Assembly (NCBI RefSeq): GCF_001612635.1
Contig: NZ_BDAV01000009.1
Location: 62,001-126,000, forward strand
Length of the DNA stretch: 64,000 nucleotides
From: Nocardia africana NBRC 100379
GTDB lineage: Bacteria > Actinomycetota > Actinomycetes > Mycobacteriales > Mycobacteriaceae
Direction of reading: 5' to 3'
Of the stretch, positions 1 through 27,273 are shown piece after piece. The notes below the pieces were generated by a model. The model was not told the origin of the DNA. It did not search any database and was given only the letters and a program-made list of their open reading frames with translations. Numbering within the stretch: position 1 is the first letter of the stretch; each line of letters opens with the position of its first letter. The translations under genes were made by a program, and so were the position numbers.

Positions 1-2
1 AG

Positions 3-1070
3 CAGTCCGCCCTGCGCGAGTCGCTCCGGGCGCTGCTGGCCAAATGGGGCGATATCGCGCAGGTCCGCCAGGCCTCGTCCACCGAACGTGGATACTCGGT
101 ATCGCTGTGGCGGGCCCTCGTCGACGACATGTCGGTCACCGCACTCGCGGCCTCCGAGGATCGCGGCGGGCTGGGATACGGGGTGGCCGAACTGGCGACG
201 ATTCTCGAGGAGTGCGGGCGCGCGCTGGTCTGCGAACCGGTCTACAACTCCGCCGTGCTGGGCGTACAGGCCCTGCTCCTGACCCGCCCCGGCGACGACG
301 ACCTCCTGCTGGCAGGCGTATTGGCCGGCGATCTGCTGGCCACCGTCAGCGCCCTCGATACCACCACCGACGATCTGCGCGCGGTCCGGACGTCGGCCGG
401 ATGGATCGTCGACGGCACGGTCACTCACCTGGTGTGCGGTGGAACCGCCGACGTGATAGTCGCGTCGGCGCGCTGCTCGGATGGACGCCGCCTGTTCGCC
501 GTGCGTCCGGGTGAGGACTGCCTGCGAACCGAGCGAGTGGTCCTGGACCCCACCCGCCGGCAGGCGGACGTGGCGCTACGGGCCGCTCCGGCTGTCGTCC
601 TCGCTGCGCCGGAGGGAACCGCCACCGCGGCCACCCGCTTGCGTGATCTCGCCACACTCGCCCTCGCCAGCGAGAACACCGGCATTATCGACATGCTGCT
701 CGAGACGACCGTGTCCTACGTCTCGACTCGCCGCCAATTCGACCGGGCCATCGGCTCTTTCCAGGCTGTCAAACATCGCCTTGCCGATCTACTGGTCCTG
801 CTCGAGCGCGCGCGATCCGCGTCCCGCTATGCGGCCGCGGCCTACGCCGAGGACCCGGACGCGGCAAGGCTGGCGGTCGCTGTTGCGGGTGCGGTCTGCA
901 CCGACGCTGCTGTACAGACTGCGGCCGAGGCCGTCCAACTGCACGGCGGGATCGGCTTCACGTGGGAGCATCCGGCCCACTCCTATTTCCGCCGGGTTAT
1001 GGGAAATGAAGCGGCACAAGGCGGTTCGCGGGCTCACCGCGACACGATAGCCGCGCTCGTCGGATTGTGA
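3..1070 (+). CDS. Acyl-CoA dehydrogenase, 5' end outside window
   Basis: Flavin-dependent dehydrogenation of an acyl-CoA thioester. The frame is open from the first bases of the window, well upstream of the first ATG at 129, and the early residues (QSALRESLRALLA) look like the helical N-terminal domain of the family, so the gene is cut by the window edge. The C-terminal part carries the helical FAD/tetramer region and ends with the HGGIGFTWEHPAH motif. That motif is typical of one subunit type in actinobacterial heterotetrameric dehydrogenases (FadE28/FadE29 kind), where one subunit supplies the catalytic base. The dehydrogenase at 3551-4759 is the obvious partner; this pairing is inferred. 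It is followed by a 90-base gap holding a candidate operator before the crotonase gene. Confidence 0.88.
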   Translation, partial: QSALRESLRALLAKWGDIAQVRQASSTERGYSVSLWRALVDDMSVTALAASEDRGGLGYGVAELATILEECGRALVCEPVYNSAVLGVQALLLTRPGDDDLLLAGVLAGDLLATVSALDTTTDDLRAVRTSAGWIVDGTVTHLVCGGTADVIVASARCSDGRRLFAVRPGEDCLRTERVVLDPTRRQADVALRAAPAVVLAAPEGTATAATRLRDLATLALASENTGIIDMLLETTVSYVSTRRQFDRAIGSFQAVKHRLADLLVLLERARSASRYAAAAYAEDPDAARLAVAVAGAVCTDAAVQTAAEAVQLHGGIGFTWEHPAHSYFRRVMGNEAAQGGSRAHRDTIAALVGL

Positions 1071-1126: not shown

Positions 1127-1160
1127 GGAAATTCTCCCCCGACAGAAAGAGGCCACTCAC

Positions 1161-1949
1161 ATGATCGACACGGACCACATCGTGCTCGAGAAGGACGGCG
1201 AGATTGCGCGGGTGTGGCTCAACCGCCCGCACGTCAAGAACGCCGTCACCGTCGAATTGCTGCACCGCCTCGACGAGATCATCGTCGAGGTCGACAACGA
1301 TCCCAACCTCAAGGTCCTGGTCCTGCGCGGCCGGGGTAACACCTTCTGCTCGGGCTTCGACCTCAACGAACTGCGCGCGAACTACGTCGGCCAGACCAAC
1401 GCTATGGATGTCGCAGTGCTCTCCGCGAAGGTCTGCGACCGCCTGTACTCGATGAACACCCCATCGGTCGCGGTACTCGAGGGTTACGTCACCGCCGGCG
1501 GTTTCGAGCTGATGATCTCCTGCGATTTCGCCGTCGCGGCCGACGACGCCAAGATCGGCGATTTCCACATTCGCCGGGCCCTGTTCGGCGGCGCGGGCCC
1601 GATCTACCGGCTGCCGCGCATGATCGGCATCCGCAAGACCAAGGAGCTGATGCTGACCGGCAAGCTGCTCAGCGGCCGGGAGGCCGCCGCGTTCGATCTC
1701 ATCAACGCCTCCGCCCCGGCCGCCGAGCTCGACCAGCTGGTCGCCGATTTCGTTGCCCCGCTGGCCGATAAGAGCCCGTTCGCGATGAAGCTCACCAAGA
1801 TGACCATCGACCGCGGCTTGGACGCCGACATCCAGTCGCTGATGGTGATGGAGCACCTGGCCGTGGGCAACGCGCTGCAGTCCGAGGACGCCGCCGAGGG
1901 CGTGACCGCCTTCCTGGAGAAGCGCGAACCGAAGTGGGTCGGTCGCTGA
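1161..1949 (+). CDS. Crotonase-family enoyl-CoA hydratase/isomerase (262 aa)
   Basis: Crotonase superfamily enzyme acting on an enoyl-CoA. ATG at 1161 is preferred over the upstream in-frame GTG at 1113 because AGAAAGAGG lies just before it and the protein then has the usual length. The oxyanion-hole loop (GRGNTFCSGFDL, residues about 57-68) and the GGFEL segment with the first catalytic glutamate (E116) are present. The second catalytic glutamate of classical hydratases, 20 residues later, is a histidine here (H136, in GDFHI), so simple syn-hydration should not be assumed; isomerase, lyase or altered hydratase chemistry is possible. It lies 47 bases before the DUF35 gene. In the igr steroid side-chain operon a MaoC-type hydratase holds the equivalent place. 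Confidence 0.9.
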   Translation: MIDTDHIVLEKDGEIARVWLNRPHVKNAVTVELLHRLDEIIVEVDNDPNLKVLVLRGRGNTFCSGFDLNELRANYVGQTNAMDVAVLSAKVCDRLYSMNTPSVAVLEGYVTAGGFELMISCDFAVAADDAKIGDFHIRRALFGGAGPIYRLPRMIGIRKTKELMLTGKLLSGREAAAFDLINASAPAAELDQLVADFVAPLADKSPFAMKLTKMTIDRGLDADIQSLMVMEHLAVGNALQSEDAAEGVTAFLEKREPKWVGR

Positions 1950-1996: not shown

Positions 1997-2374
1997 ATGG
2001 GCGTTGCGGAGCTCCGCACACTCGAGGGCAGCCGGTGCGCGACCTGCGGCACCGTCGCATTCCCGGCCTGTGCGATGTGCGGACGGTGCGCCACCCCGAC
2101 CGCGACGACGATTCCGCTCAGCGACCACGGCGTGGTCTGGGCCTACACCGTGCAACGGTTCGCGCCCAAGTCACCGCCTTATGTCGCTCCGGCCGAAGGG
2201 TTTTCACCGTTCGCGGTCGGATATGTCGAACTTCCGGAAGGCGTCCGGATCGAGGCGGTTCTGGACTGTACCGACTTCGCCGAACTGGACGGGGCACAGG
2301 TGCGGCTGGTCGCCGTCGCGCCGGTGCCCCGGTTCGCGACCCGCACGTTCATTCAGGAAGGCAAGGCGCAGTGA
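1997..2374 (+). CDS. DUF35 OB-fold zinc-ribbon protein (125 aa)
   Basis: Small acyl-CoA-associated protein of the DUF35 (COG1545) family: an N-terminal rubredoxin-like zinc ribbon with two cysteine pairs (CATC and CAMCGRC, residues about 15-32) followed by an OB-fold (AYTVQRFAP, FAVGYVELPEG). ATG 1997 follows GGAAGGAAAAG; the longer in-frame start at 1934 would run back into the preceding gene. Its stop overlaps the GTG start of the thiolase-like gene, which indicates translational coupling. In steroid degraders DUF35 domains (ChsH2 C-terminus) bind and activate the Ltp2 aldolase, so this protein probably forms a complex with the next gene product. Confidence 0.85.
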   Translation: MGVAELRTLEGSRCATCGTVAFPACAMCGRCATPTATTIPLSDHGVVWAYTVQRFAPKSPPYVAPAEGFSPFAVGYVELPEGVRIEAVLDCTDFAELDGAQVRLVAVAPVPRFATRTFIQEGKAQ

Positions 2375-3522
2375 CACCGTCGGTCTCGATCATCGGCACC
2401 GGGTTGTCCCGGTTCGGCAGGCAACCGGATCTCACCGGCAGACAGCTCGCGGTCGTCGCTATCAACGCCGCGCTCGATGATGCCGGATTACGTTGGCAGG
2501 ACATTCAATTTGCGTGCGGCGGCAGTGACAGCTCCGGTCTGGCCGACACCCTCGTCGCAGAACTGGGCTGCACCGGGATACCGTTCACCAACGTCAAGAA
2601 CGGCTGCGCGACCGGCGGTAGCGCACTGCTCGGGGCGGTCAACGCCGTCCGCTCCGGTACCGCCGAGATCGCGTTGGCCGTCGGGTTCGACAAGCATCCG
2701 CGCGGTGCGTTCGATCCGACGCCGGAGGAGTGGGGTCTTCCACGCGAGTACGGCGAGGCCGGGCTCATGGTCACCACGCAGTTCTTCGGCGCGAAGATCA
2801 ACCGGTACATGCGGTTGCACGGTATCTCGACCATGACGCTGGCCAAGGTCGCCGAAAAGGCTTACCGCAACGGCAGTCTCAACCCCAACGCCTGGCGGAG
2901 AGAACCGATGTCCGCGGCGGAGATCGCCGCGGCACCCATGGTGAACGACCCGCTGACCAGGTTCATGTTCTGCTCACCCGGTACCGGTGCCGCCGCGGTG
3001 ATCGTGGCGAGCGAATCGGTGACCCGCCGCCGCGGCGCGCAGCCCATCCGCTTGCGCGCGATCAGTCACCGCACCCGCCGGTTCGGCTCGTTCGAGGTGT
3101 TCAGCCCGGCCGTCCTGGGCGGCGGCGAACCGGTCAGCGTGAGCTCCGACGCGGCGACCGCGGCATTCGAGGAGGCGGGCATCGGGCCCGCCGACATCGA
3201 CGTCGCACAGCTGCAGGACACCGAGAGCGGTGCGGAGATCATGCACATGGCCGAATGCGGGTTCTGTGAACACGGCGAGCAGGAGGCGATGCTCGCCGCG
3301 GGCGACACCGAAATCGGTGGACGGCTGCCGATCAACACCGATGGCGGCTGCATCGCCAACGGTGAGCCGATCGGCGCGTCCGGCCTGCGCCAGGTCCACG
3401 AGATCATCACCCAGCTGCGCGGTGCCGCGGGCGCCCGGCAGGTTCCGGGATCACCGCGGGTGGGGTTCACCCACGTCTACGGGGCGCCCGGGATCAGCGC
3501 CTGCACCGTGCTCTCGGTGTGA
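2371..3522 (+). CDS. Thiolase-fold lipid-transfer protein, Ltp2-like (383 aa)
   Basis: Member of the SCP-x/lipid-transfer thiolase group. GTG 2371 overlaps the DUF35 stop. The nucleophile-loop cysteine is present (C79 in NGCATGG). The usual GHPxGA histidine motif is GEPIGAS (E332), and the C-terminus has HVYGAPG (Y370). This form is seen in Ltp2/Ltp3/Ltp4-type proteins rather than in degradative thiolases. Ltp2 of Mycobacterium catalyses retro-aldol release of a short acyl-CoA from a steroid side chain together with a DUF35 partner, and the gene pair here has the same arrangement. A retro-aldolase is therefore favoured; a true thiolase cannot be excluded because C79 is kept. Confidence 0.85.
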   Translation: MTPSVSIIGTGLSRFGRQPDLTGRQLAVVAINAALDDAGLRWQDIQFACGGSDSSGLADTLVAELGCTGIPFTNVKNGCATGGSALLGAVNAVRSGTAEIALAVGFDKHPRGAFDPTPEEWGLPREYGEAGLMVTTQFFGAKINRYMRLHGISTMTLAKVAEKAYRNGSLNPNAWRREPMSAAEIAAAPMVNDPLTRFMFCSPGTGAAAVIVASESVTRRRGAQPIRLRAISHRTRRFGSFEVFSPAVLGGGEPVSVSSDAATAAFEEAGIGPADIDVAQLQDTESGAEIMHMAECGFCEHGEQEAMLAAGDTEIGGRLPINTDGGCIANGEPIGASGLRQVHEIITQLRGAAGARQVPGSPRVGFTHVYGAPGISACTVLSV

Positions 3523-3550: not shown

Positions 3551-4759
3551 GTGACCGAACCTTCAATTCCCGATTTGGCCCAGTTCGTCGAACAAGCCAC
3601 AACCTGGCTTGCCGGTATGGCCGCACCCCGCACCGAGAGTCCCTGGGGTAGTGGATCCGATTCGGTCGCGGTCTTCGAAAACTGGACCGAAGCACAGGAG
3701 CGGGCCGAGACCGACCGCGTGCGTGCCTACGAACGCGCCAAATTCGACGCCGGCTGGGGTGCGCTGAACTGGCCGCGCGCCTACGGCGGCCGCGAGCTCC
3801 CACTGTCGTACGTGCTCGCCTTCCGGCGCGTCGAGGAGGGCTTCGATCTACCGAGGCGCACCGAAATGTTCTCGGTGACACAGCAATTGGTGGCGCCGGC
3901 GATCGACCAGTGGGGCACCGAGGAGCAGCGGGAGCGATATGTCCGGGCGATGCTCCGCACCGATGTCATCGCCTGCCAGCTCTTCTCCGAGACCGAGGCG
4001 GGGTCGGATCTGGCCGCCGTGCGGACCCGCGCTGTCCGCACGGACGACGGCGGCTGGATTCTCAACGGGCACAAGGTATGGACCTCCGGCGCCCGGATCG
4101 CCGACATCGGCATCGCGGTGTGCCGGACCGATCCGGCCGGCGCCAAACATGCCGGTCTGACCGTATTCCTGGTACCGATGGACGCTCCTGGCGTCGCCGT
4201 ACGCCCGATCCGGCAGATGACCGGGGGAAGTTCCTTCAACGAGGTCTACCTCGACAACGTCCGCCTCGACGACGGCGACCGGCTCGGGCCCGTCGGCAAG
4301 GGCTGGCAGGTCGCGTTGACGGTGCTGGCGGCCGAGCGCCTGGACGGCGCCAATCTGGGCCTGGCCAATGCCGATCGCGCGATCGCGCTGGCCGGGAATC
4401 TGGATCGTGGTCTGACCGAACTCGAACGCGACCGAGTGGCCGACCTGGTGACCCGCGGTTATGTGCAGCGTGTTGCCGCCATGCGGGTCGCCGCAGCCGT
4501 GGTGGCCGGGCGCGACCCCGGCCCGGAGGCATCGATCGGGAAGCTGCTGGCCACCGACACGATGGCCCGGACCTCCGAGGTCGTGCGGCTGCTGCTCGGC
4601 CGCGACCTGGCCGCCGATTCCGGCGCGTGGGGCACCTTCGCGTGGACCGAACATGTGCTCGGCGCGCCCGGATACCGGATCGCCGGCGGCACCGACGAGA
4701 TTCAACACAACATCATCGCCGAGCGAGTACTCGGCCTGCCCAAGGAGCCGCGCCCATGA
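3551..4759 (+). CDS. Acyl-CoA dehydrogenase (402 aa)
   Basis: Acyl-CoA dehydrogenase with the flavin-side signature CQLFSETEAGSDLA (mid-protein) and the C-terminal signature GGTDEIQHNIIAERVLG. The glutamate that precedes GT in MCAD is a glycine here, as in actinobacterial FadE proteins that place the base elsewhere or share a site with a second subunit; the dehydrogenase at 3-1070 is the likely partner. GTG 3551 follows a GAGAAGAGCA leader; the frame is open further upstream, inside the preceding gene, and that part is not coding. The stop overlaps the ATG of the kinase-like gene (ATGA). The order dehydrogenase, hydratase, DUF35, Ltp, dehydrogenase resembles the igr cholesterol side-chain operon. 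Confidence 0.9.
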   Translation: MTEPSIPDLAQFVEQATTWLAGMAAPRTESPWGSGSDSVAVFENWTEAQERAETDRVRAYERAKFDAGWGALNWPRAYGGRELPLSYVLAFRRVEEGFDLPRRTEMFSVTQQLVAPAIDQWGTEEQRERYVRAMLRTDVIACQLFSETEAGSDLAAVRTRAVRTDDGGWILNGHKVWTSGARIADIGIAVCRTDPAGAKHAGLTVFLVPMDAPGVAVRPIRQMTGGSSFNEVYLDNVRLDDGDRLGPVGKGWQVALTVLAAERLDGANLGLANADRAIALAGNLDRGLTELERDRVADLVTRGYVQRVAAMRVAAAVVAGRDPGPEASIGKLLATDTMARTSEVVRLLLGRDLAADSGAWGTFAWTEHVLGAPGYRIAGGTDEIQHNIIAERVLGLPKEPRP

Positions 4760-5706
4760 GCTCGACACTGGAACAGCGAGTCGCGGCGCGACTGCGGACC
4801 GATCTCGGCGCCCGACTCACGTCTTTCGAACGGCTGCCCGGTGGCCATTCCGGTCTGACATTCCGCGCGGAAACCACCGGCGAACCGTATGTCGTCAAAG
4901 CCGTGCCGGAGGGCAGCAGGCCGATCGGCCGCCACGACATGCTGCGCCAAGCCCGCATCATGCAGCTACTCGCGCAGACACCGGTGCCGGTGCCACGTAT
5001 CGCGGTGGTGGACAGCGACGAACCCGCCTGGTTCGCCATGGAACTCGTCGCCGGTGAGTCACTGGAGCCGGTACTCGACGATCCCGCGGTCGCACCGGAG
5101 CTGGCCGCGGCCCGGATGCGCCGGGCCGCGCGGCTGCTGCCCGCGCTACACGCGGTGGACGCGGCCGGCATTTCCGCGCCCGCGCTCACACCGGCCGAGG
5201 AACTCGCCCGCTGGGCGCGCACCCTCGGCGCCGTGCCACCCGAACTCGTCGCCGGTGGTGACCGGCTGCTCGCGTTGCTCGAACGCCGAATCCCCGAGCC
5301 GATCACGCCGGGGCTCGTGCACGGCGACTATCGCCTGGGCAACATCATCTCCGCCGGGCCGGAACCGGTCGCTCTGATCGACTGGGAGATCTGGAGCATG
5401 GGCGATCCGCGCGTGGAACTCGGCTGGTTCCACGTCTTCGCGGACGGCGAGAACTTCCCCGGTGTCGGCCGGAATGTGCCCGGTTTGCCCAGCGCGGCGG
5501 AACTGCTCGACATCTACTGCGCCGCCGGGCCCTCGCTCGCCGAGCAAACCTGGTTCGACGCGCTGGGCCGGCTCAAGATGGCCGCGATCATGGGCCACAA
5601 CCTGCGCAGACATCGCGAAGGCCGGCATCACGATCCGGACCAGGAAAAACTACCCGCCACCATCACTCGCCTCATCGAGACCGGAACCGCGCTACTCGCA
5701 GGTTGA
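4756..5706 (+). CDS. APH-fold phosphotransferase, LvaA/ACAD10-11 kinase-like (316 aa)
   Basis: Aminoglycoside-phosphotransferase-fold kinase with all core residues: N-lobe VVKAV lysine, catalytic loop HGDYRLGN (H189, D191, N196) and metal-binding IDWE (D209). It starts at ATG 4756 inside the previous stop and is followed after 29 bases by an ACAD10/11-type dehydrogenase. Among catabolic genes such kinases are better explained as 4-hydroxyacyl-CoA kinases than as drug resistance: LvaA with LvaC in levulinate catabolism, and the fused kinase and dehydrogenase domains of mammalian ACAD10/ACAD11, phosphorylate a 4-hydroxyacyl-CoA and then eliminate phosphate. That role is inferred from context. 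Confidence 0.85.
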   Translation: MSSTLEQRVAARLRTDLGARLTSFERLPGGHSGLTFRAETTGEPYVVKAVPEGSRPIGRHDMLRQARIMQLLAQTPVPVPRIAVVDSDEPAWFAMELVAGESLEPVLDDPAVAPELAAARMRRAARLLPALHAVDAAGISAPALTPAEELARWARTLGAVPPELVAGGDRLLALLERRIPEPITPGLVHGDYRLGNIISAGPEPVALIDWEIWSMGDPRVELGWFHVFADGENFPGVGRNVPGLPSAAELLDIYCAAGPSLAEQTWFDALGRLKMAAIMGHNLRRHREGRHHDPDQEKLPATITRLIETGTALLAG

Positions 5707-5735
5707 CCCTCGCCCTTCCGCTCAGGAGCCGCACC

Positions 5736-6938
5736 GTGGACTTTTCCTACTCCGCCCGCACCCAGGATCTGCTCGTCGAACTCGAAGACTTCATGACCGG
5801 CCACGTGTATCCGGCCGAGCCCGTGTACGACGCGCAGATCGCCGCCGCCGCCAACCCCCACGAGCAGCCGCAGATCATGCGGGATCTGCAGGCCGAGGCC
5901 CGGCGCAGGGGGTTGTGGAACCTGTTCATGACCCACGACGGCTTGGGCGCCGGACTCACCAACCTCGAGTACGCGCCGCTGGCCGAGGTGGCCGGCCGGT
6001 CGGTGATCGGCAACGAGGCGATCAACTGCTCGGCGCCGGATACCGGCAACATGGAGATCCTGGCCATGTTCGGCACCGAACAGCAGAAGCAGCAATGGCT
6101 GAAACCCTTGCTGAACTGCAGTATTCGCTCCGCCTTCGCGATGACCGAGCCCGCGGTGGCCAGCTCGGACGCCACCAACATCACCTCGACGATTCGCCGC
6201 GACGGTGATGAGTACGTCCTCAACGGGCGCAAGTGGTACACCTCCGGAGTTCTCGATCCGGATTGCAAGCTGATCATCTTCATGGGCAAATCCGATCCCG
6301 CGGCGAAGACCTACCGCCAGCAGAGCATGATCCTGGTGCCCGCCGACGCCCCCGGCATCGAGGTACTGCGCGATCTGCCGATGTTCGGCTTCCACGATCG
6401 CCTCGGTCACGGAGAGGTCCAGTTCACCGACGTCCGGGTCCCCGCGGCGAACATGCTCGGCGCCGAAGGCGACGGCTTCGCCATCGCGCAGGGCCGGCTC
6501 GGGCCCGGGCGGATGCATTACGCGATGCGCGCCATCGGCATGGCCGAACGGGCCCTGGAGTTGATGTGCCGCAGGGCGCTGGAGCGCACCGCGTTCGGTG
6601 GTCCGCTCGCCGATCGCGGGGTGGTCCGCGAGTGGATCGCGCGCAGCCGCATCGAGATCGATCAGATCCGGCTGCTGGTACTGCAGTCGTCCTGGCTGAT
6701 GGACACCCAGGGCAATGCCGCGGTGCGCTCACAGGTCGCCGCGATCAAGGTCGCGGCGATGGAGGTGGCACACACAGTCGTCGATCGCGCCGTGCAGACC
6801 TTCGGCGCTGCCGGAGTCAGCAACGACACCGTCCTGGCCCGGATGTACGCCATCACCCGGGCACTGCAGATCGCCGACGGTCCCAATGAGGTGCACCTGC
6901 GCACAATCGCTCGTCTCGAGGTGGAGAACTACCGATGA
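5736..6938 (+). CDS. Acyl-CoA dehydrogenase, ACAD10/11 (LvaC) type (400 aa)
   Basis: Dehydrogenase-fold flavoprotein whose ends match the ACAD10/11 group: N-terminus VDFSYSARTQDL with HVYPAE, and C-terminal ADGPNEVHLRTIARLE in place of the usual EGT motif. GTG 5736 is chosen because GGAG lies at the right distance and the family starts this way; the TTG at 5703 is the alternative. The Ser/Thr flavin loop is AMTEPAVASSDATN. Next to the APH-fold kinase it recreates as two genes the kinase-plus-dehydrogenase unit that isomerises 4-hydroxyacyl-CoA to 3-hydroxyacyl-CoA by way of a phosphate ester. Its stop overlaps the ATG of the following SDR. Confidence 0.88.
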   Translation: MDFSYSARTQDLLVELEDFMTGHVYPAEPVYDAQIAAAANPHEQPQIMRDLQAEARRRGLWNLFMTHDGLGAGLTNLEYAPLAEVAGRSVIGNEAINCSAPDTGNMEILAMFGTEQQKQQWLKPLLNCSIRSAFAMTEPAVASSDATNITSTIRRDGDEYVLNGRKWYTSGVLDPDCKLIIFMGKSDPAAKTYRQQSMILVPADAPGIEVLRDLPMFGFHDRLGHGEVQFTDVRVPAANMLGAEGDGFAIAQGRLGPGRMHYAMRAIGMAERALELMCRRALERTAFGGPLADRGVVREWIARSRIEIDQIRLLVLQSSWLMDTQGNAAVRSQVAAIKVAAMEVAHTVVDRAVQTFGAAGVSNDTVLARMYAITRALQIADGPNEVHLRTIARLEVENYR

Positions 6939-7693
6939 ACACATCTGATCTGACCGGCAAGGTCGCACTGGTCACCGGCGCCAGCCGAGGGCTCGGCTTG
7001 GCCATCGCCAGGGGCTTGCGCGATGCGGGCGCCACGGTGATAGTTTCGAGCCGAAAGCTCTCCGCTTGTGCGGAAGCGGTTGCGGCACTGGGTGATTCCC
7101 CCGTCGGCAGCGCCCACCCGCTGGAACTGCATGTCGGCAAGTGGGATGGCATCGAGCCGGCCCTCGACGGGATCATCGCGGAGTTCGGGCGGCTGGACAT
7201 CGTCGTCAACAATGCGGGCATCGCACCCGTGGCCGACGATCTCACGTCCGTGACGGAAGCGCTGTGGGACAAGACCATCGAGGTCAATCTGAAGGGTCCG
7301 TTCCGGCTGATGGCCGTGGCCGGAGCCCGGATGGCCGCCGCCGGTGGTGGATCCATCATCAACATCTCCAGCATCGGGGCCTTGCGGCCGAGCCCGCCGG
7401 AAACGATGTACGCCGCCGCGAAGAGCGGGCTCAACGCGTTGACCCTGGCCTTCGCCCAGGCGTACGCGCCCGCCGTGCGGGTGAACTGCGTCCTGCCGGG
7501 CGGATTCGCGACCGATATGGCCGAGCACTGGGACGACGAGTTCGTCTCGAAGATCGTCGATCGGCTGCCCGCGGGACGGCTGGGCAGGCCGGAGGAGATC
7601 GCCGGGCTCGTCACCCATTTGGCAGGTGACGCGGCGAGTTACACCACCGGCGCGGTCATTCCGGTCGACGGTGGCCGGACCGCGGTGTACTGA
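6935..7693 (+). CDS. SDR-family oxidoreductase (252 aa)
   Basis: Classical short-chain dehydrogenase/reductase. Cofactor loop TGASRGLG near residue 14, NNAG at about 92-95, catalytic S146, Y159 and K163 (YAAAK), and the C-terminal PVDGG. The start overlaps the previous stop (ATGA). Position directly after the kinase/dehydrogenase pair suggests oxidation of a 3-hydroxyacyl-CoA or a ring hydroxyl; the substrate is not visible in the sequence. Confidence 0.9.
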   Translation: MNTSDLTGKVALVTGASRGLGLAIARGLRDAGATVIVSSRKLSACAEAVAALGDSPVGSAHPLELHVGKWDGIEPALDGIIAEFGRLDIVVNNAGIAPVADDLTSVTEALWDKTIEVNLKGPFRLMAVAGARMAAAGGGSIINISSIGALRPSPPETMYAAAKSGLNALTLAFAQAYAPAVRVNCVLPGGFATDMAEHWDDEFVSKIVDRLPAGRLGRPEEIAGLVTHLAGDAASYTTGAVIPVDGGRTAVY

Positions 7694-7703: not shown

Positions 7704-8489
7704 GTGCTGACAGACGATACGACTACCGATACCCTCACCCGGCTGTTCGGCCTACGTGGCCGGACCGCCGTGGTCACCGGCGCCTCGTCTGGCCTCGGAC
7801 TCGGATTCGCGAAGACGCTCGCCGGTGCCGGGGCCACGGTGTTCGCCGTGGCTCGCCGCACCGACCGGCTGACCGCCCTGGCCGAGCATGACCCGGGCAT
7901 CGTCCCGGTCCGTTGTGATGTGACCCTCGACGAGGACCGCCGGGCGTTGGTCGAACGCTGTTATGAACAGACCGGCCGCCTGGACGTGCTGGTCAACAAC
8001 GCGGGCATGGCCGGTCCTCCGCACGCGGAGCAGGAATCGGCCGCGGGCTTCGCGGCCCTGCTCGAACTGAATCTGCTCGCCGGGTTCCATCTCGCCCTCG
8101 GCGCGGCCACCGCGCTGCCGGAGGGGCGCGGCGCGTCGATCATCAATATCTCCTCGATCATCGGGCTGGCCTCGACCGCGCCGATCGGCGGGGCGAGCTA
8201 TGCCGCCTCCAAGGCGGGGGTTCTCGGCCTGACCCGTGAACTCGCCGGTCAGTGGGGTGGTCGCGGGATTCGCGTCAACGCGGTCGTGCCCGGGTGGTTC
8301 GATACCGAGATGACCGACGGGCTGTTCAGCAACGACAAATCGGCCGGCTGGGTGCGACGCAACACGATGCTCGGCCGCGGCGGTTCCGCCGGAGAGGTCG
8401 ACGGCGCCGTGCTGTTCCTGGCCTCGGCGGCGTCGTCGTATATGACCGGCCAGACGGTGGTGGTCGACGGCGGATGGACGGCCCGCTGA
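7704..8489 (+). CDS. SDR-family oxidoreductase (261 aa)
   Basis: Second classical SDR in the operon: TGASSGLG cofactor loop, NNAG, catalytic S151, Y166 and K170 (YAASK), C-terminal VVDGGW. GTG 7704 lies 10 bases after the preceding stop and gives a normal-length protein; the upstream frame runs through the previous gene. It ends in TGATG, coupling it to the alcohol dehydrogenase. It is only moderately like its neighbour at 6935-7693, so the two probably act on different steps. Confidence 0.88.
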   Translation: MLTDDTTTDTLTRLFGLRGRTAVVTGASSGLGLGFAKTLAGAGATVFAVARRTDRLTALAEHDPGIVPVRCDVTLDEDRRALVERCYEQTGRLDVLVNNAGMAGPPHAEQESAAGFAALLELNLLAGFHLALGAATALPEGRGASIINISSIIGLASTAPIGGASYAASKAGVLGLTRELAGQWGGRGIRVNAVVPGWFDTEMTDGLFSNDKSAGWVRRNTMLGRGGSAGEVDGAVLFLASAASSYMTGQTVVVDGGWTAR

Positions 8490-9544
8490 TGTTGGCGGTA
8501 CAGCTGACCGAATGGGGCAGGCCCCCGGTGCTGCGGCATGTGCCGGCACCGGAGCCCGTCGGGGAGGAGCTTGTCCTGCAGGTCACCGCGGCCGGACTGT
8601 GCCGATCCGATCTGCATGTCATGGACTCGGCGGCGGCGAGTTTCGACTGCCCGTTGCCCCTCACGCTCGGCCATGAGGTCGCCGGCACGGTGCTGGCGGC
8701 CGGACCGGACGCCGAGCCGGGATGGCTGGGCGAAACCGTTGTGGTGCACGGCGTCTGGAGTTGCGAACACTGCCGCAACTGTGTACGAGGCCGGGAGAAC
8801 TACTGCCTGCGGCTGCGGCCGCGCGCGACCGGTGCGCCGCCGGCGCCGATCGGCAACGGCCTCGGATATCACGGTGGCCTGGCCCAGGCGATGCTGGTCC
8901 CGTCGGCCCGGCATCTCGTCCGCACCGCCGGTCTGGATCCGGTCGTGGCCGCACCGCTGACCGACGCGGGCCTGACGGCCTATCACGCGGTTCACGAACA
9001 CGCCGACCTGATCGATGCGCACGCGACCTGTGTGGTGATCGGAGTCGGCGGCCTCGGCCACCTCGGCGTGCAGATTCTCCGCGATATGGGCGCCGGTCGG
9101 ATTCTCGCCGTCGACAACCGGGCGGACGCCCGTGCGATGGCCGTGCGCTTGGGCGCCGAAGCGGCGTACCACGATGTGGACTCGCTGCGTGCGGCAGTGA
9201 CCGACGGTGCGGATGTGATCATCGATTTCGCCGGCGCACCGGATACGGCGCAGCCCGCGACGCGCCTGCTCGCGCCGGGCGGCCGCCTGACGGTGGTGGG
9301 CAGCGCGGGCGCACTGATCGAGGTCGGCAAGACCGTCGGCCTCGCCGCGGGCTGGCGGGTCACCGCACCGTTCTGGGGTCCGCGCGCAGACCTGGTCGCG
9401 GTGATCGACATGGCGCGCCGCGGCGCCCTGCACGTGGCGGCCACCCCCTACCCACTGGCCGAGGGGGTCGAGATCTACCGGCGTTTGCGCGCCGGCGACA
9501 TCACCGGACGCGCCGTGCTGATTCCGCCACCGTTGCAGCGCTGA
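8489..9544 (+). CDS. Zinc-dependent alcohol dehydrogenase, MDR family (351 aa)
   Basis: Medium-chain dehydrogenase with both zinc sites. Catalytic zinc: C38 (GLCRSDLH) and H62-E63 (GHE). Structural zinc: C92, C95, C98 and C106 (CEHCRNCVRGRENYC). The NAD(P)-binding fold carries GVGGLGHLG. ATG 8489 overlaps the SDR stop (TGATG); an in-frame ATG at 8474 would add five residues. It probably oxidises an alcohol to an aldehyde or ketone ahead of the CoA ligase encoded next. Confidence 0.9.
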   Translation: MLAVQLTEWGRPPVLRHVPAPEPVGEELVLQVTAAGLCRSDLHVMDSAAASFDCPLPLTLGHEVAGTVLAAGPDAEPGWLGETVVVHGVWSCEHCRNCVRGRENYCLRLRPRATGAPPAPIGNGLGYHGGLAQAMLVPSARHLVRTAGLDPVVAAPLTDAGLTAYHAVHEHADLIDAHATCVVIGVGGLGHLGVQILRDMGAGRILAVDNRADARAMAVRLGAEAAYHDVDSLRAAVTDGADVIIDFAGAPDTAQPATRLLAPGGRLTVVGSAGALIEVGKTVGLAAGWRVTAPFWGPRADLVAVIDMARRGALHVAATPYPLAEGVEIYRRLRAGDITGRAVLIPPPLQR

Positions 9545-9592: not shown

Positions 9593-11104
9593 ATGAAGAT
9601 ACTCGCGAAAGAAATGCTCGAACGGGCACAGCGCAGCCCGGATCGGATCGCGGTGGTCGACGAGTTCGGCGAGCATACCCTCGGTGAGATCGTCGCGGCG
9701 GCTTCGACGCTGGCGGCCCGCATCGAGGCGATCGATCCGGGCGCCCCGACCGTCCTGGTCCAGGCGGACAACACCTGGCACACCGTGGCCGCCGCGCTCG
9801 CGGTCGGGCTGCGGGGAGGCGTCGTCGCGGTGCTGAGCCCGCACGCCGCCGACTCGGAGTTCCGGCTCGCTGTCGCGGATATCGCGCCGGATCTGGTGTT
9901 CGCCGAACCCGAGCCACTGGATCGGTGGCAGGTGCCCGCCGCCTTCTCGATCCGGGAGTCCGCCTTCGCCGGCCGGGTGGTGTGCGCCCGGCCGGGGCCG
10001 TTCGGTCCGGTGGAACGCTGGCGCGGCGGGACGGCCATCGCGATGACGTCGGGATCCACCGGTCGGCCGAAATGTGTCGTGCAGTCCGAAGAGGCGATCC
10101 GCTATGCCTGCACGCGCACGATCGAGGTCGTGGGCCTACAGCCGGGCGAAGCCGTCGGAGCGTTCGTTCCGCTCTCATCGGTGGCCGCGTTCTGCTTCGG
10201 CATGTATCTGCCCGCTTACCTGGGCGGGGTCATGGTGACGATCGACAAGTGGTCCCCGGTCGCCGCGCTGACTGCGATAGCGGCCCATCGCGTCGCCTGG
10301 ACGATGCTGGTCCCGACGATGGCCCTGCAACTGTCGCTCGTCGACGACGCCCCGGGCGTGCCGGTCCTGCGAGCGATCACCGTCGGCGGTGGTCCGATGA
10401 ACGAGAGTGCCATGGCCGCGGCGGAGAACCGCCTCGGCACCACTTTCCTGCGGGTGTTCGGCATGTCCGAATGCCTCGGCCACACCACGCCGCGGCCGGA
10501 CGATCCGCCCGCGATCCGCCTCGGCCGGGACGGACGCCCGTTCGAGGGCACCGTGGTCCGGGCCGTCGACGGCGCGGGGAACATCCTCGGCCCGGGCGAG
10601 GTCGGCGACGCCCAGGTGAAGGGGCCGTCACTGTTCGTGGGTTATGCCAGGGACGGGGTTCCGGTACCGCCGGAACTCACCCCCGACGGGTTCCTGCCCA
10701 CCGGCGATCTGGTCGAGGTGGCCGGTGACGGTTCGATCCGGGTGCTCGGGCGACAGAAGCAGATCATCATCCGCGGCGGCCGCAACATCGATATCAACGA
10801 GGTGGAGGCGGCGATCGCGGGTCTGCCCGCGGTCGTCCAGGTGTGTGTCGTCGCGGTGCCCGATGATCTGCTGGGAGAGCGTGCGGCCGCGCTGATTGTC
10901 ACCGATGGCCCACCGATGACGCTGGACAATGTCACCACCCAGCTCGCGGCGGCGGATGTGCCCAAGTTCAAGTGGCCGGAGTACCTGTTCACCGTGCAGG
11001 ACCTGCCGCAGAACCGGGTCGGGAAACTGGACCGCCCGGAGGCGGTTCGTATGGCGACCCGCCTGGCCCTCGCTGTTGACCCGACTTCAGCTCAGGTAAG
11101 ATAG
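9593..11104 (+). CDS. Acyl-CoA synthetase / AMP-binding ligase (503 aa)
   Basis: ANL-superfamily adenylate-forming ligase that would load a carboxylic acid onto CoA using ATP, the entry step for the dehydrogenases upstream. The AMP-binding P-loop is MTSGSTGRPK (residues 151-160), followed by LPTGDLVE, the hinge GRQKQIIIRGGRNID and the C-terminal catalytic lysine in NRVGKLDR. ATG 9593 is preceded by GAGGGAAC. It is the last metabolic gene before the TetR regulator, 43 bases downstream. The substrate class cannot be read from sequence. Confidence 0.9.
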   Translation: MKILAKEMLERAQRSPDRIAVVDEFGEHTLGEIVAAASTLAARIEAIDPGAPTVLVQADNTWHTVAAALAVGLRGGVVAVLSPHAADSEFRLAVADIAPDLVFAEPEPLDRWQVPAAFSIRESAFAGRVVCARPGPFGPVERWRGGTAIAMTSGSTGRPKCVVQSEEAIRYACTRTIEVVGLQPGEAVGAFVPLSSVAAFCFGMYLPAYLGGVMVTIDKWSPVAALTAIAAHRVAWTMLVPTMALQLSLVDDAPGVPVLRAITVGGGPMNESAMAAAENRLGTTFLRVFGMSECLGHTTPRPDDPPAIRLGRDGRPFEGTVVRAVDGAGNILGPGEVGDAQVKGPSLFVGYARDGVPVPPELTPDGFLPTGDLVEVAGDGSIRVLGRQKQIIIRGGRNIDINEVEAAIAGLPAVVQVCVVAVPDDLLGERAAALIVTDGPPMTLDNVTTQLAAADVPKFKWPEYLFTVQDLPQNRVGKLDRPEAVRMATRLALAVDPTSAQVR

Positions 11105-11147: not shown

Positions 11148-11771
11148 ATGGTTGTTGATACCGAAGCTCGCCGCGAGAGCGCCCGTTCGAAGCGTGGCCA
11201 CATCCTCAAAACGGCCATCGAGAAATTCGGGCAAGTCGGCTACGAGCAGACCAAATGGGCCTCCGTCGCCGACGAGGTCGGCATCGGCCAGACCGCGCTG
11301 TATCACTACTTCGAGTCCAAGGCCCATTGCCTGCTGACGATCATGCGCCTCGAACTGGCGGATTCCGTCGAACGTTTCACCGCCGCCACCGAGAATCAGG
11401 ACGATCCCGAACAAGCCCTGCGCGCGGCGGTCGCCGCCGCCCTGGCCGGGACGGCGACCGACGCCCTGCAGCGTCGAATCCTGCAGAGCCACATGGACCT
11501 GCTCGTCGCCCCACGCCAGTCCGAGAAGGAGGAGGTCGAACGGCTGCGTTCCCGGGAACTCGTGCAGGAGATCGAACAGAACTGGTCCGGGTTGGTCGCG
11601 CGCGGTATCGACGCCGGTGTGTTCGCCGAGGGTGACCCCCGCCTGCTCGGGCAGTTGATACTCGGCATGATCGTCAGCATCTGGCGCTGGTACCGGCCCG
11701 ACGGCGACCTCAGTCTGGCCGAAATCACCGAGACGATCAGCGCCGCGACCGTCCGGCTCCTGGTCGAGTAG
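11148..11771 (+). CDS. TetR-family regulator of the catabolic cluster (207 aa)
   Basis: N-terminal TetR helix-turn-helix (ILKTAIEKFGQVGYEQT to GIGQTALYHYFESK, about residues 18-60) followed by a variable helical ligand-binding domain. ATG 11148 lies 9 bases after a GGGGG stretch. It sits between the ligase gene and the EthD/hydrolase pair and is the only regulator gene within the first 20 kb, so it is the leading candidate to bind the repeated operator motif. The ligand is probably an acyl-CoA or the free substrate, as for other TetR regulators of lipid catabolism; this is inference. Confidence 0.9.
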   Translation: MVVDTEARRESARSKRGHILKTAIEKFGQVGYEQTKWASVADEVGIGQTALYHYFESKAHCLLTIMRLELADSVERFTAATENQDDPEQALRAAVAAALAGTATDALQRRILQSHMDLLVAPRQSEKEEVERLRSRELVQEIEQNWSGLVARGIDAGVFAEGDPRLLGQLILGMIVSIWRWYRPDGDLSLAEITETISAATVRLLVE

Positions 11772-11814
11772 ATCCCGAGGCGAATCCGGACCGGTTCCGC
11801 TTGCCCGCAGAAAC

Positions 11815-11830
11815 TAAACAGAATTCAATT
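11815..11830 (-). promoter_or_regulatory. Candidate operator 2 (reverse orientation)
   Basis: Read on the minus strand this is AATTGAATTCTGTTTA, 13 of 16 identical to the site at 18865-18880. It ends immediately before the AGGAGA ribosome binding site of the EthD-like gene, where a bound repressor would block transcription. Confidence 0.4.
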
Positions 11831-11839
11831 AGGAGAATC

Positions 11840-12175
11840 GTGTACAACCTCTTGGTTCTGGCATCCCGCCCCAGCGACTGGACGCATGAACAGTTCATCC
11901 AGTGGTGGCGCGGCGAACACGCCGAGGTCACCTATCCGCTGCCCGGACTGCTGCGCTGGCAGCACACCGATCTGCTCGAGTCGATGGACGAAAAGTCGGC
12001 GGGCTGGGACGGGCTGTCGATCCTGAGCTTCGAATCCCGCGAGGCGCTCGACGCCGCATTGGCGAGTCCGGAATGGGAGGCCGCGGTGCGGCACGTCGGT
12101 GCGATGCGGGGCAGGCGCATGATCTGGTTCGGCGACGAACGGACGATGGTGCCGCTCGCCGAGCCGGGCGCGTGA
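11840..12175 (+). CDS. EthD/dimeric alpha-beta barrel protein (111 aa)
   Basis: Small protein of the ferredoxin-like dimeric barrel type: starts VYNLLVLASRPSDW, then FIQWWRGEHAEV, and later a second strand-helix unit ending in IWFGDER. The W-x3-H arrangement is typical of EthD-like proteins found with oxidative catabolic genes, but no catalytic role is established for this one. GTG 11840 follows AGGAGA directly, so the in-frame ATG at 11801 is not needed. The stop overlaps the next GTG start. Candidate operator 2 adjoins the ribosome binding site. Confidence 0.75.
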   Translation: MYNLLVLASRPSDWTHEQFIQWWRGEHAEVTYPLPGLLRWQHTDLLESMDEKSAGWDGLSILSFESREALDAALASPEWEAAVRHVGAMRGRRMIWFGDERTMVPLAEPGA

Positions 12176-13191
12176 GCACGCACTGGGCGGAACCTGGATG
12201 TCATCCGATAGCCGAAGGCATCCATCGCATTCCGCTGCAAATGCCACAGGACGGATTGCGCGCCGTCAATGTCTACGTCCTGGAAACCGAGGGCGGTCTC
12301 GCGCTGATCGACGGGGGCTGGCACCGGCCGGACACATACCGCGAACTCGCCGCCGGCCTGGCGCGAATCGGCCGTTCTCCCGACGAGATCCACGATGTGT
12401 TCGTGACGCACGTGCATCGCGACCACTACACCTTCGCCGTCGAACTGCGTCGAAGGCACGGCTGCCGGGTACATCTGGGCGCCGGTGAATCCCCTGGCCT
12501 CGAGGCCGTCCAACGGCTCGGCACCAATGAGCCCCAGAACGCCCTGCACGAGTTGCGCCGGGCGGGCGCGGGCGCTCTCGCCACCCGCGCCCGGGCCGGC
12601 AGCCTGGCCGAGTCCTTCGATCCGCTCGACTGGGAGCCCCCCGACCACTGGTTGCGGCCGGGCGACGTCGACCTGGCCGGTTATCGTCTGCACGCCCGGG
12701 CAACTCCCGGACATACCAAGGGCCACATGGTCTTCGAGGACCTCGATCGAAAACTGATGTTCACCGGCGATCATGTGCTGCCGACGATCACCCCCTCGAT
12801 CGGTTTCGAGCTCGGCCCGTGGGAACTGCCGTTGGAGAACTTCTTGCGCTCGCTGACACTGCTGAGTGATGACGACACGCTCGTGATGCTGCCGGCCCAC
12901 GGTATGCCCGGCGGGAGCGTCGGCCGGCGTGCGCGCGCACTCCTCGCGCACCACGAAGAGAGGCTCGCCCAGACAGCCGCTGTCGTCGGTGAACTGGCGC
13001 CCTGCACGGGTTCGGCCGTGGCCCGGGCACTGACCTGGACGCGGCACGACCGCAGCTTCGACACTCTGGGCACCTTCGATCAGATGTTCGCCACCTGCGA
13101 GACGCTCGCGCATCTCGATGTGCTCGTCACTCGAAATGTGTTGACCGCGAAGGACAACGACGGTGTGGACGTCTTCAGCACTGCCCGCTGA
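12172..13191 (+). CDS. Metallo-beta-lactamase-fold hydrolase (339 aa)
   Basis: MBL-fold enzyme with the metal motif THVHRDH (H80, H82, D84, H85), a later ATPGHTKGH histidine and FTGDH aspartate, and an added C-terminal helical region. GTG 12172 overlaps the previous stop. In this setting it is most likely a thioesterase or lactone/ester hydrolase acting on a pathway intermediate; the fold alone does not decide. Its last residues and stop codon lie inside a 24-bp perfect inverted repeat shared with the convergent SDR gene. Confidence 0.85.
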   Translation: MSTHWAEPGCHPIAEGIHRIPLQMPQDGLRAVNVYVLETEGGLALIDGGWHRPDTYRELAAGLARIGRSPDEIHDVFVTHVHRDHYTFAVELRRRHGCRVHLGAGESPGLEAVQRLGTNEPQNALHELRRAGAGALATRARAGSLAESFDPLDWEPPDHWLRPGDVDLAGYRLHARATPGHTKGHMVFEDLDRKLMFTGDHVLPTITPSIGFELGPWELPLENFLRSLTLLSDDDTLVMLPAHGMPGGSVGRRARALLAHHEERLAQTAAVVGELAPCTGSAVARALTWTRHDRSFDTLGTFDQMFATCETLAHLDVLVTRNVLTAKDNDGVDVFSTAR

Positions 13192-13221: not shown

Positions 13222-13986
13222 TCAGGCGCAGGTCCACCCACCGTCGACATACAGCTCGCTGCCGGTGATGAAGGTCGAATCGTCGCCGGCCAGGAATGCG
13301 ACCGCCGCGGCGACCTCCTCGGCGCGGCCGAGCCGGCCCATCGGGGTGTGCTCGAGCATCGCCCGGTAGCGATCACTACCCTCGTATCGGTCGAGCAGCT
13401 GGCGGGTCTCGATGAATGCCGGGTGGATCGAATTGACCCGGACCCCCCTGGCGGCCCAGTACAGGGCCGCATTCTTGGTCATCGTCCGGACCGCACCCTT
13501 GGCCGCCGCATACGCCAGGCTGTTGCCCAGACCGCCCACGGTGCCCAGGATCGAGCAGAGGTTGACTATCGATCCTCCGCCGGTGCGCTCGATGAGCGCA
13601 CCGGCGTGCTTCATACCCAGCCAGGTACCGGTCTGGCTGATCGCGATCACCTTGTTGTAGCGCTCCAGATCCTCGTCCACCACCGTCGCCAGGCTGCCGA
13701 TGGCGCCGTTGGCGACGAGCACATCCAGGCGCGCGAAGCGTTCCGCGATCGCCTCGACCGCGGCGCGCCACTGCTGTTCATCGCCGATGTCCAGCTCGAG
13801 CACATGATGGCGTTCGGGATCCGGGATGTCCGCCGCCACCCGCGCACACGCTTCGGCATCCAGATCCGTCAGCACGAGCACAGCGCCCTCGCCGGCCAGC
13901 CGCCGCGCGATCTCCACGCCGATCCCACCGGAGGATCCCGTCAACAGGACCACTTTGTCGCGCAATCGCGCACCGCCGGTCGTCAT
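13222..13986 (-). CDS. SDR-family oxidoreductase, last gene of transporter operon (254 aa)
   Basis: Classical SDR: TGSSGGIG cofactor loop, catalytic S145, Y159 and K163 (YAAAK), C-terminal YVDGGW. The NNAG motif is altered to ANGA (residues 92-95), which removes the conserved structural asparagine pair. It is the fifth and last gene of the minus-strand operon, 40 bases after the permease, and ends just before the shared hairpin. Its presence with an importer suggests it acts on the imported compound. Confidence 0.88.
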   Translation of the reverse strand: MTTGGARLRDKVVLLTGSSGGIGVEIARRLAGEGAVLVLTDLDAEACARVAADIPDPERHHVLELDIGDEQQWRAAVEAIAERFARLDVLVANGAIGSLATVVDEDLERYNKVIAISQTGTWLGMKHAGALIERTGGGSIVNLCSILGTVGGLGNSLAYAAAKGAVRTMTKNAALYWAARGVRVNSIHPAFIETRQLLDRYEGSDRYRAMLEHTPMGRLGRAEEVAAAVAFLAGDDSTFITGSELYVDGGWTCA

Positions 13987-15724: not shown

Positions 15725-16884
15725 CAGGCCGGTCCTCCCGCGCTCACCGGCACCGCCACGGGTGGCGCTGGATGGAGATCGCCTGTGGTGGAGAAGATCC
15801 GGAGGTTCGCAGGCGAGAAGCTCACCACGACCGGAGCCCCGGGGCGGCTGTTGCGCAGCGCCGGGCCGTGTACTGCGGCGTCCGCACGCAGCAGTAGCTT
15901 CTCGCCGCCGGTCGTCACCGTCACATCGAAGTAGCGGCCACCGTATTCGTAGGTGACCAGTTCCGCGTTCAGGACGACGTTTCCCAACGGCACATCGTGG
16001 GCCGAAGTATGCAACAGCACATCGTCGGGACGCAGCCGCGCGACCGCCGCCGTGCCGCGATCGGCCGAGTCCCGGACCAGCGCGTGAGTCAGGTCGATGG
16101 GATCGCCCGCCGACGTTCGCCAGCCGTCGTGGTCGCGGTGGAGTTCGAGCCGGTTGGCCATGCCGATGAAGGCCGCGACATACTCCGACACCGGGTTCTC
16201 GAAGACTCGTTCGGGTGCGTCGTATTGTTCGATCCTGCCGGACTTCATGATCGCGAGGCGATCCCCGAGCGCGAAAGCCTCGGCCTGGTCGTGGGTCACG
16301 AAGACCGCGGTGAAGCCCAATCGCTGGTGTAGCTGGTGGATCTGGCTACGCACCTGATCACGCAGCCTGGCATCGAGGTTGCTCAAGGGCTCGTCGAACA
16401 GCACCAGATCCGGTTGTGCGACCAGACCACGAGCCACGGCCACTCGCTGTTGCTGCCCGCCGCTGAGCTGGGAAGGATAGCGATCGAGCAGGGCGCCGCA
16501 GTCCACCATCTCCGCGGCGGTCTCGACCGCGCCGTCGGCGATCGCCTGCTTGCGCTTGCGCACCTTCAGCGGATACCGGATGTTGTTCCGGACCGTCATA
16601 TGCGGCCACAGCGCGTAGGACTGGAACACCATCCCGATATTGCGCTTGTGCGGGGGCAGATTCGTCCGGGCCGGGCCGTCGAATACGACGTTGTCCCTGA
16701 ACGTGATCGAGCCGCCCTGTGGGGTTTCCAATCCCGCCAGGCAGCGCAGCGTGGTCGTCTTCCCGCATCCGCTCGGGCCGAGCAGGACGACGAATTCCCC
16801 CTCCTCGATCTCGAGGTCGAGTTCATCGACGACAACGGTGGATCCGTAGGTCTTGGTCAGTTCGGCGATCTTGAATCGCGACAT
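15724..16884 (-). CDS. ABC transporter ATP-binding protein (386 aa)
   Basis: Nucleotide-binding subunit with Walker [10 protein letters not shown], signature [14 protein letters not shown], Walker [14 protein letters not shown] and the switch histidine in VTHDQAEA. The 150-residue C-terminal extension is a TOBE-type regulatory domain, as in the CUT1/FbpC/PotA group. ATG 16884 (MSRFKIAEL) is chosen because it gives the standard N-terminus; the upstream extension falls inside the SDR gene. It lies 4 bases after the SDR stop and overlaps the permease start. Confidence 0.92.
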
Positions 16885-16888
16885 CGGC

Positions 16889-17671: not shown

Positions 17672-17715
17672 CTGCTGTCCTTCGTCGATGAGAGTGGTCG
17701 GGTCGGTACCGGTGA

Positions 17716-18753: not shown

Positions 18754-18796
18754 GATGCGATGTGTTTGCTGATGGATCACAGAAACCGCCTAACTG

Positions 18797-27103: not shown

Positions 27104-27162
27104 TGCTCATCCTCCCGACTTGATTCGGCCGGCCGCCGGACGGGGTGTCTCGGACGACCTGA

Positions 27163-27177: not shown

Positions 27178-27273
27178 CTCCCGCAGGCGCGGCAAATATG
27201 CAATAGACGGTTTCGAGCTCCGTCGCTAATCGGCGACGCCGCAGGATCTGGGAGCCATCCCTGGCCGGGTGGC

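Follow-up and report, generated by a model that had tools for sequence, protein, structure and literature searches.

We analyzed a stretch of 64,000 nucleotides (positions 62,001 to 126,000 of contig NZ_BDAV01000009.1, hereafter the window) from the genome of Nocardia africana NBRC 100379 (7.81 Mb in 93 contigs), in which the gene of an APH-fold kinase (4756..5706, + strand) directly precedes that of an ACAD10/11-type dehydrogenase (5736..6938, + strand, with the frame open from 5703) within a long operon of β-oxidation-type genes. By analogy with known systems, the two enzymes are likely to form a phosphorylation and phosphate-elimination module acting on a 4-hydroxyacyl-CoA. Their sequences indicate a variant branch, the substrate of which is probably not 4-hydroxyvaleryl-CoA: the kinase and that of ACAD11 fall into different clades, and a Tyr replaces His634, the residue of ACAD11 that contacts the phosphate. 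All coordinates are those of the window, and related loci are numbered with the prefix L.

Conservation of the kinase and dehydrogenase pair

The kinase gene encodes a protein of 316 amino acids that contains H189, D191, N196, and D209 in its translation, together with K48 and R64, and that matches the APH family of Pfam (PF01636, E 2.5e-28). The dehydrogenase frame (5703-6938, 411 amino acids) carries the motif ADGPNEVH at residue 391 and matches the N, M, and 1 domains of the Acyl-CoA_dh families. Judging from the sequence, its start is most likely the GTG at 5736, which lies 29 bases past the kinase gene with an AGGAG site in front; at this position, relatives have MDFSYS within the frame (L105) or begin with MDFALD (L113), and residues 1-9 of the dehydrogenase structure model have a predicted local distance difference test score (pLDDT) below 50. 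The kinase gene overlaps its upstream neighbor by 4 bases, and the dehydrogenase gene likewise overlaps the downstream gene, which encodes a short-chain dehydrogenase/reductase (SDR).

The kinase was used as a query against one genome per species (84,980 species), and the best 80 of 486 relatives, located at 79 distinct loci, were analyzed. Among these best 80, the operon is common to 17 loci (L049-L064 and L066), which span Nocardia, Williamsia, Gordonia, Rhodococcus, Dietzia, Aeromicrobium, Allosalinactinospora, and Nocardioides and in which the kinases are 63-92% identical to that of the window, the closest among the named relatives being that of Nocardia albiluteola (92%). The kinase is followed by the dehydrogenase in the same order and on the same strand in all 17, with 0-44 bases between the matches, which shows that the pairing is not due to chance. 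A preliminary description of this DNA had placed an intact APH-fold kinase directly before an ADGPNEVH dehydrogenase. Translation, the Pfam matches, and the 17 loci confirm this arrangement, and the word intact is right for H189, D191, N196, and D209, which are invariant, but not for the α-C Glu, which is Gln65. In the taxonomic order of the host, the kinase was found at E <= 1e-60 in 14 of 397 genomes, its own included. The pair is still adjacent and the operon kept in three loci of more distant families (L147, L148, and L150), and large plasmids in Rhodococcus sp. BH4 and R. qingshengii carry annotated copies of the operon with generic product names.

Clades and active-site residues of the two enzymes

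A quick tree of 105 kinase rows splits into one side of 57 rows and another of 48 (SH-aLRT 99), which correspond exactly to Gln or Glu at the α-C position, a match that was checked separately, and this residue defines the groups that we call Q-type and E-type. Since rows were kept if they had 230-460 amino acids and the HxD..N motif (which left out L131, from the same genome, by length and L150 by motif), the invariance of H, D, and N in the tree rows is partly a result of selection. The Q-type rows, which include the window kinase, have a β-3 Lys in 53 cases, an Arg at the position of ACAD11 R176 in 3, and Glu or Asp at position 177 in all 57; the E-type rows, which include ACAD11 and the uncharacterised kinase 3dxp, have a β-3 Arg, R176, and Q177 in 48/48 each. 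At the positions of the α-C Glu and of R176-Q177, the window kinase has Q65, E148, and E149. (R86 of the ACAD11 paper is off in the numbering of the chain that we compared and was mapped as the Arg preceding the α-C Glu.) A careful tree of 45 rows agrees with this division, with a Q clade of 23 rows (99/93). On these alignments and trees, the window kinase is not on the branch that holds the kinase of ACAD11 but in a separate clade.

By sequence, the best solved relatives of the kinase are 3dxp and ACAD11. Its structure model (pLDDT 94.8) gave the highest fold scores with 3dxp (Z 28.1), the 25-hydroxysteroid kinase (Z 26.4), and Rv3168 (Z 26.2), followed by homoserine kinase (Z 23.1) and by aminoglycoside and choline kinases (Z <= 21.5); the kinase domain of ACAD11 was absent from the 50 rows listed by Foldseek or VIA-align and was found by the sequence search. 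In the 45-row tree, the 25-hydroxysteroid kinase (9fsg) and Rv3168 pair with each other (100/100) outside the 23-row Q clade, and both have Gln at the α-C position and WGD for HGD. A decayed kinase, to which Gln65 might point, was rejected: Gln marks the whole 57-row clade, and none of the catalytic residues H, D, N, and D varies among 63 aligned kinases (the window and 62 relatives, taken with no motif filter). In addition, Gln at this position is compatible with activity because it is also found in the 25-hydroxysteroid kinase, an enzyme described as proven to phosphorylate tertiary steroid alcohols with high activity (PMC8449060). An outlying Q-type group with the motif HGDFQTAN is formed by second kinase rows from marine gammaproteobacteria (L102, L106, L123, and L127); these lie approximately 14 kb into L102, L123, and L127 and 7.5 kb into L106, and no ACAD11-type gene was counted within 8 kb of them.

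The best solved sequence relatives of the dehydrogenase are 4hr3 (427 bits) and ACAD11 (419 bits), and its AlphaFold2 model (pLDDT 91.2) best matches 4hr3, 8v3u, and 2wbi. Rows with the motif DG[PA]xE were kept for a tree of 58 rows, 55 of the ACAD11 type and 3 ordinary acyl-CoA dehydrogenases (ACADs), leaving out as short or split the second copy of L064, L072, L151, and L154. The window enzyme falls in a 26-row clade of operon enzymes (100/99) nested in a 32-row clade (100/100). The other members of the latter are ACAD11, 4hr3, and four bacterial enzymes with HHCMR in the H634-R637 region, one of which is encoded in the genome of the window. These six non-operon rows, among which 4hr3 reads HHAMR, may be the sister group of the operon clade (weak support, 84/54). 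According to the structural work on ACAD11, D753 acts as the base, R631 has a general role, and the 4-phosphate is bound by R626, H634, and R637; R626 and R637 are described there as absent from conventional ACADs, and the residues of the phosphate region as common to ACAD10/11 and LvaC (PMC12440821). Equivalents of R626, R631, and R637 are present in all 55 ACAD11-type rows, window included, and so is that of D753, although the rows had been selected by a motif containing this Asp. The residues of the window enzyme in this region are R265 (R626), R270, Y273 (H634), R276 (R637), and D392 (the catalytic Asp). Its sequence thus identifies the dehydrogenase as a member of the ACAD10/11-type clade with an altered phosphate motif.

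The same genome has a second ACAD11-type dehydrogenase (G000:C9:322470-325250, L129), 59% identical and of the HHCMR type. Because it adjoins an SDR and an E-type kinase, the host also appears to have a conventional-looking lva-like module. In Crossiella (L113, 9126-12145), a gene that by eye resembles the HAD family is followed in a row by those of an E-type kinase and an HHCMR dehydrogenase, which is the domain order of mammalian ACAD10.

Kinase type and dehydrogenase type go together in the loci examined. As a check independent of the kinase, plasmids were searched with the dehydrogenase, and 15 of the 128 records obtained were examined. HYAMR dehydrogenases occur in 3 of the 15 (L155, L156, and L158), each beside a Q-type kinase, and HHCMR dehydrogenases in 12, 10 of which have a kinase in the stretch, E-type in every case; no kinase was found within the stretches of L157 and L163. 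In the loci fetched with the kinase, a biased sample, HHAMR dehydrogenases accompany Q-type kinases. An ACAD11-type gene lies within 8 kb of the kinase in 37/48 Q-type versus 7/46 E-type rows, counts drawn from an uneven sample because the loci were fetched by their likeness to the window kinase. The stretches counted are of unequal length; L067, L072, and L154 are scored as misses despite a more distant or split dehydrogenase match, and the count excludes L147, L148, and L151, whose kinase motif was unread by the pattern, and the short loci L134-L146 (the genomes of L134-L138 may duplicate species already in the set). The simplest history suggested by these sequences would be that a dehydrogenase of the LvaC lineage adopted a Q-type kinase as its partner and that His634 then changed to Tyr. 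Among the listed matches in open-licence PubMed Central literature, compared at the level of titles and the beginnings of abstracts, none concerned the operon or a pair of a Q-type kinase and an ACAD11-type enzyme.

Proposed reaction and its alternatives

The lva operon of Pseudomonas putida likewise keeps together a kinase, an ACAD11-type dehydrogenase, an SDR, and a CoA ligase. In our comparison, made without the P. putida LvaA and LvaC sequences, the window has an APH kinase with the HxD...N...D residues next to an ACAD with an Asp base, and, in the same operon, an SDR reductase of the LvaD kind and an AMP-forming CoA ligase of the LvaE kind. The dehydrogenase is approximately 55-59% identical to the bacterial HHCMR-type enzymes and has R265 and R276 in the HCMR region, with Y273 at the position of H634; the kinase, in a set that did not include P. 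putida LvaA, lacks the α-C Glu and the R176-Q177 of the ACAD11 branch and falls in a clade other than that of the kinases near HHCMR enzymes (10/10 of those sampled are E-type). The window pair differs further from lva in the long operon around it, with a pair of FadE-type dehydrogenases, an OB-fold protein, and a thiolase-like protein. Mammalian ACAD10 and ACAD11 have the same two domains, the catalytic Asp residues, and the equivalents of R626 and R637; compared with the ACAD11 sequence alone, the window system has separate genes, Tyr273 for His634, Asn104 for a conserved Pro, and a Q-type kinase without R176. The preliminary description had called this a pair of the LvaA/LvaC or ACAD10/11 type, which holds for the dehydrogenase (clade support 100/100; R626, R637, and D753 kept) and for the accompanying SDR and ligase, but not for the kinase branch or for His634. 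Because these two features are absent, we do not file the pair as LvaA/LvaC; by analogy, it probably works like LvaA/LvaC.

The pathway that we infer, from its chemistry and step order to the 4-position and the substrate, is modeled on the lva pathway (PMC6692424) and on ACAD10/11 (PMC12440821, PMC11342911). The CoA ligase would make the acyl-CoA and, in an optional step, one SDR may convert a 4-oxo group of this acyl-CoA into a 4-hydroxyl. The kinase would then phosphorylate the hydroxyl of the acyl-CoA at the expense of ATP, and the ACAD10/11-type flavoenzyme would eliminate the phosphate with no net redox change, yielding a 2-enoyl-CoA. Hydratase, SDR, and thiolase-like protein could take this product through hydration, oxidation, and C-C cleavage, as in β-oxidation, and the FadE pair might serve another round. 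The product originally proposed, a 3-hydroxyacyl-CoA, does not stand as written, since the main product reported for ACAD10/11 is the 2-enoyl-CoA, with some 3-hydroxyacyl-CoA (PMC12440821, PMC11342911).

Several observations weigh against this module. The kinase has Gln65 in place of the α-C Glu, as throughout its clade, and lacks R176, which in the ACAD11 kinase has been placed at the CoA by modelling (PMC12440821). In the dehydrogenase, the position of H634 is Tyr in 26/26 operon rows, compared with His in 28/29 and Asn in 1/29 of the other ACAD11-type rows, and changes of His634 to Ala or Leu are described as among the most disruptive in ACAD11 (PMC12440821); Tyr273 could still hydrogen-bond the phosphate. 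The Pro that is reported to widen the ACAD10/11 cavity (PMC11342911) is replaced by Asn in 24/26 operon rows (Asn104 in the window; Pro in the other 2) and retained in 26/29 non-operon ACAD11-type rows. The loss of R176, together with the changed cavity residues, suggests an acyl group other than 4-hydroxyvalerate. No LvaB-like gene was recognised, no search with an LvaB sequence having been made, and the gap between the kinase and dehydrogenase genes is 29 bases; LvaB is also described as missing from the P. citronellolis cluster (PMC6692424). For 11/48 Q-type rows, no ACAD11-type gene was counted within 8 kb. Finally, the cluster is rearranged in L149 and L151, where kinase and dehydrogenase genes are approximately 5 kb apart in one cluster. 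In favor of the module, L149 has an HHAMR-type ACAD11 relative in place of the operon dehydrogenase, a substitution that points to a need of the cluster for this class of enzyme.

These changes could also mean that the hydroxyl phosphorylated by the kinase lies elsewhere than at C4 of a straight acyl chain, for example as a tertiary or ring alcohol in a bulky acid or its CoA ester, and that the dehydrogenase eliminates that phosphate, which we consider unlikely. Besides the lost R176 and the changes of His634 to Tyr and of Pro to Asn, the presence of FadE proteins related to Tcur3483 and of an OB-fold/SCP2-thiolase pair, both known from bulky substrates, agrees with such a substrate. So does the fold, which is near that of the 25-hydroxysteroid kinase of Sterolibacterium denitrificans (9fsg, 9ft5), an enzyme with the same α-C Gln that acts on the sterol side chain. 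Like the proposed module, this kinase prepares an alcohol for elimination by turning it into a phosphate ester, and the eliminating lyase is given as unknown in the 2021 paper (PMC8449060). However, it acts on free steroid alcohols and branches with Rv3168 outside the Q clade, with WGD for HGD, and the window dehydrogenase keeps the residues that place the 4-phosphate in ACAD11, except for His634. It is highly improbable that the dehydrogenase is an ordinary FAD-dependent ACAD and that the kinase serves an unrelated step. The replacement of His634 would fit, as would the need of the operon for conventional dehydrogenation steps, but two other FadE-type genes are already at hand, the base position is an Asp, R626 and R637 are kept in 26/26 operon rows, and the kinase is strictly adjacent; the residues R265, R276, and D392 disfavor this assignment. 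An APH that inactivates an antibiotic or other small molecule, which the fold and weak NCBIfam matches to APH(3') (33.2 bits) and viomycin kinase (27.5 bits) might evoke, is hardly tenable and was rejected, as these scores are far under the cut-offs of 205 and 400, antibiotic kinases reach at most Z 21.5 compared with 28.1, and the gene lies inside a β-oxidation operon with a 4-base overlap to the preceding gene; structural matches to antibiotic kinases only, the outcome against which the preliminary description had cautioned, were not what we found, because 3dxp, the 25-hydroxysteroid kinase, and Rv3168 score higher.

The operon and its thiolase-like protein

The other operon genes up to position 13191 are all on the + strand, and their conservation is given here as the number of the 17 loci with a match of at least 45% identity. 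The first encodes a small-subunit-type ACAD (small FadE; 1..1070; 14/17), which begins upstream of the window in a frame open for approximately 388 codons of the contig; in the Pfam and NCBIfam scans its nearest NCBIfam models, IpdE2 and PimD, scored below their cut-offs. It is followed by an enoyl-CoA hydratase found by family scan, with orthologs in related loci (1152..1949, start approximate; 16/17), an OB-fold protein of the ChsH2-C type (PF01796; 1991..2374, start approximate; 17/17), an SCP2-thiolase/Ltp-like protein (2371..3522; 17/17), and a large-subunit-type ACAD (large FadE; 3551..4759; 17/17), the best solved relative of which is Tcur3483. Downstream of the pair are SDR1 (6935..7693; 17/17), a candidate 4-oxoacyl-CoA reductase in the role of LvaD, the relatives of which are found with kinase/dehydrogenase pairs in many loci; SDR2 (7707..8489, start approximate; 17/17), a candidate 3-hydroxyacyl-CoA dehydrogenase; a zinc alcohol dehydrogenase (8486..9544, start approximate; 15/17); and an AMP-forming acyl-CoA ligase in the putative role of LvaE (9593..11104; 17/17). 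SDR1, the zinc alcohol dehydrogenase, and the ligase were recognized by family scans. A TetR-family regulator (11148..11771; 16/17), an EthD-family protein (11801..12175; 17/17), and an MBL-fold hydrolase (12172..13191; 16/17) come next. The best solved relative of the latter, 2zo4, is named only 'metallo-beta-lactamase family', and a role as lactone opener would be just an idea.

On the - strand follow a conserved putative SDR at the operon end (13222..13986), at the place of which the annotated plasmid copy has a gene annotated as SDR, and the genes of an ABC transporter (permease and ATPase), an SDR, and a solute-binding protein (14027..18780), which accompany the operon in some of the loci. 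On this side, SDR3 was matched in 14/17 loci, the permease in 13/17, the solute-binding protein in 5/17, the ATPase in 3/17, and SDR4 in 2/17, the 10-kb flank stopping short of the last of these genes. Beside the transporter genes lies an OYE-type FMN oxidoreductase with a pyridine-nucleotide domain (18892-20835), and a gene of the same layout is present upstream of the operon in L062. Further away, an AurF-type N-oxygenase gene (26117-28047) has a divergent PaaX-type regulator gene nearby. Divergent upstream of the operon in L155 (13313-14067) are a SnoaL/NTF2-like protein and an unassigned small protein; a pair of the same kind occurs in L055 and, a few kb further away, in L060. The pathway substrate is not fixed by the transporter, the OYE-type oxidoreductase, or the SnoaL-like neighbors.

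OB-fold and SCP2-thiolase-fold proteins also stand side by side in Ltp2/ChsH2 and SCP2-thiolase systems. The thiolase-like protein of the window keeps a nucleophile-type Cys and differs from these in carrying QDTE and GEP, as do all 24 aligned operon copies, window included, at the positions of HDCF and GHP in the SCP2 thiolase 6hsj; neither these His motifs, a signature of SCP2 thiolases, nor YDxF/SEAY, which marks Ltp2-type retro-aldolases, is present in it. The motif is also QDTE in L149, L150, and L151, and the more distant clusters L067 and L152 have a QDTD and GEP form. The term Ltp-type cluster, used in the preliminary description, is thus not supported by these motifs, nor is the combination new as it had suggested: OB-fold and SCP2-thiolase-like genes adjoin pairs of a kinase and an ACAD11-type enzyme in Bosea (L159) and Sphingopyxis (L165), with E-type kinases, HHCMR dehydrogenases, and thiolase-like genes carrying YDCFT, and in Nocardia jiangxiensis (L077), with a Q-type kinase and an HHAMR dehydrogenase. 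This setting is therefore recurrent, in at least two other lineages.

A further possibility, which we put forward tentatively, is that the Q-type kinase and the Tyr273 dehydrogenase would be a distinct phosphate-elimination system for branched or cyclic acyl-CoA, not for straight 4-hydroxyacyl-CoA, that arose when an LvaC-lineage dehydrogenase took a kinase of another clade and changed its His to Tyr, and that supplies a thiolase-like enzyme which would cleave C-C bonds by a new type of catalysis (QDTE/GEP).

Pseudomonas is known to remove a hydroxyl with the help of a kinase when it degrades levulinate, and mammals do so with 4-hydroxy fatty acids. If the 4-hydroxyacyl-CoA module proposed here is correct, this trick would prove to be broader and modular, with a second kinase branch that is widely shared and has dehydrogenase variants of its own, and the operon enzymes would offer a natural His-to-Tyr variant for probing how ACAD10/11 enzymes eliminate phosphate without net redox change. 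The operon marks a conserved degradation island of actinobacteria.

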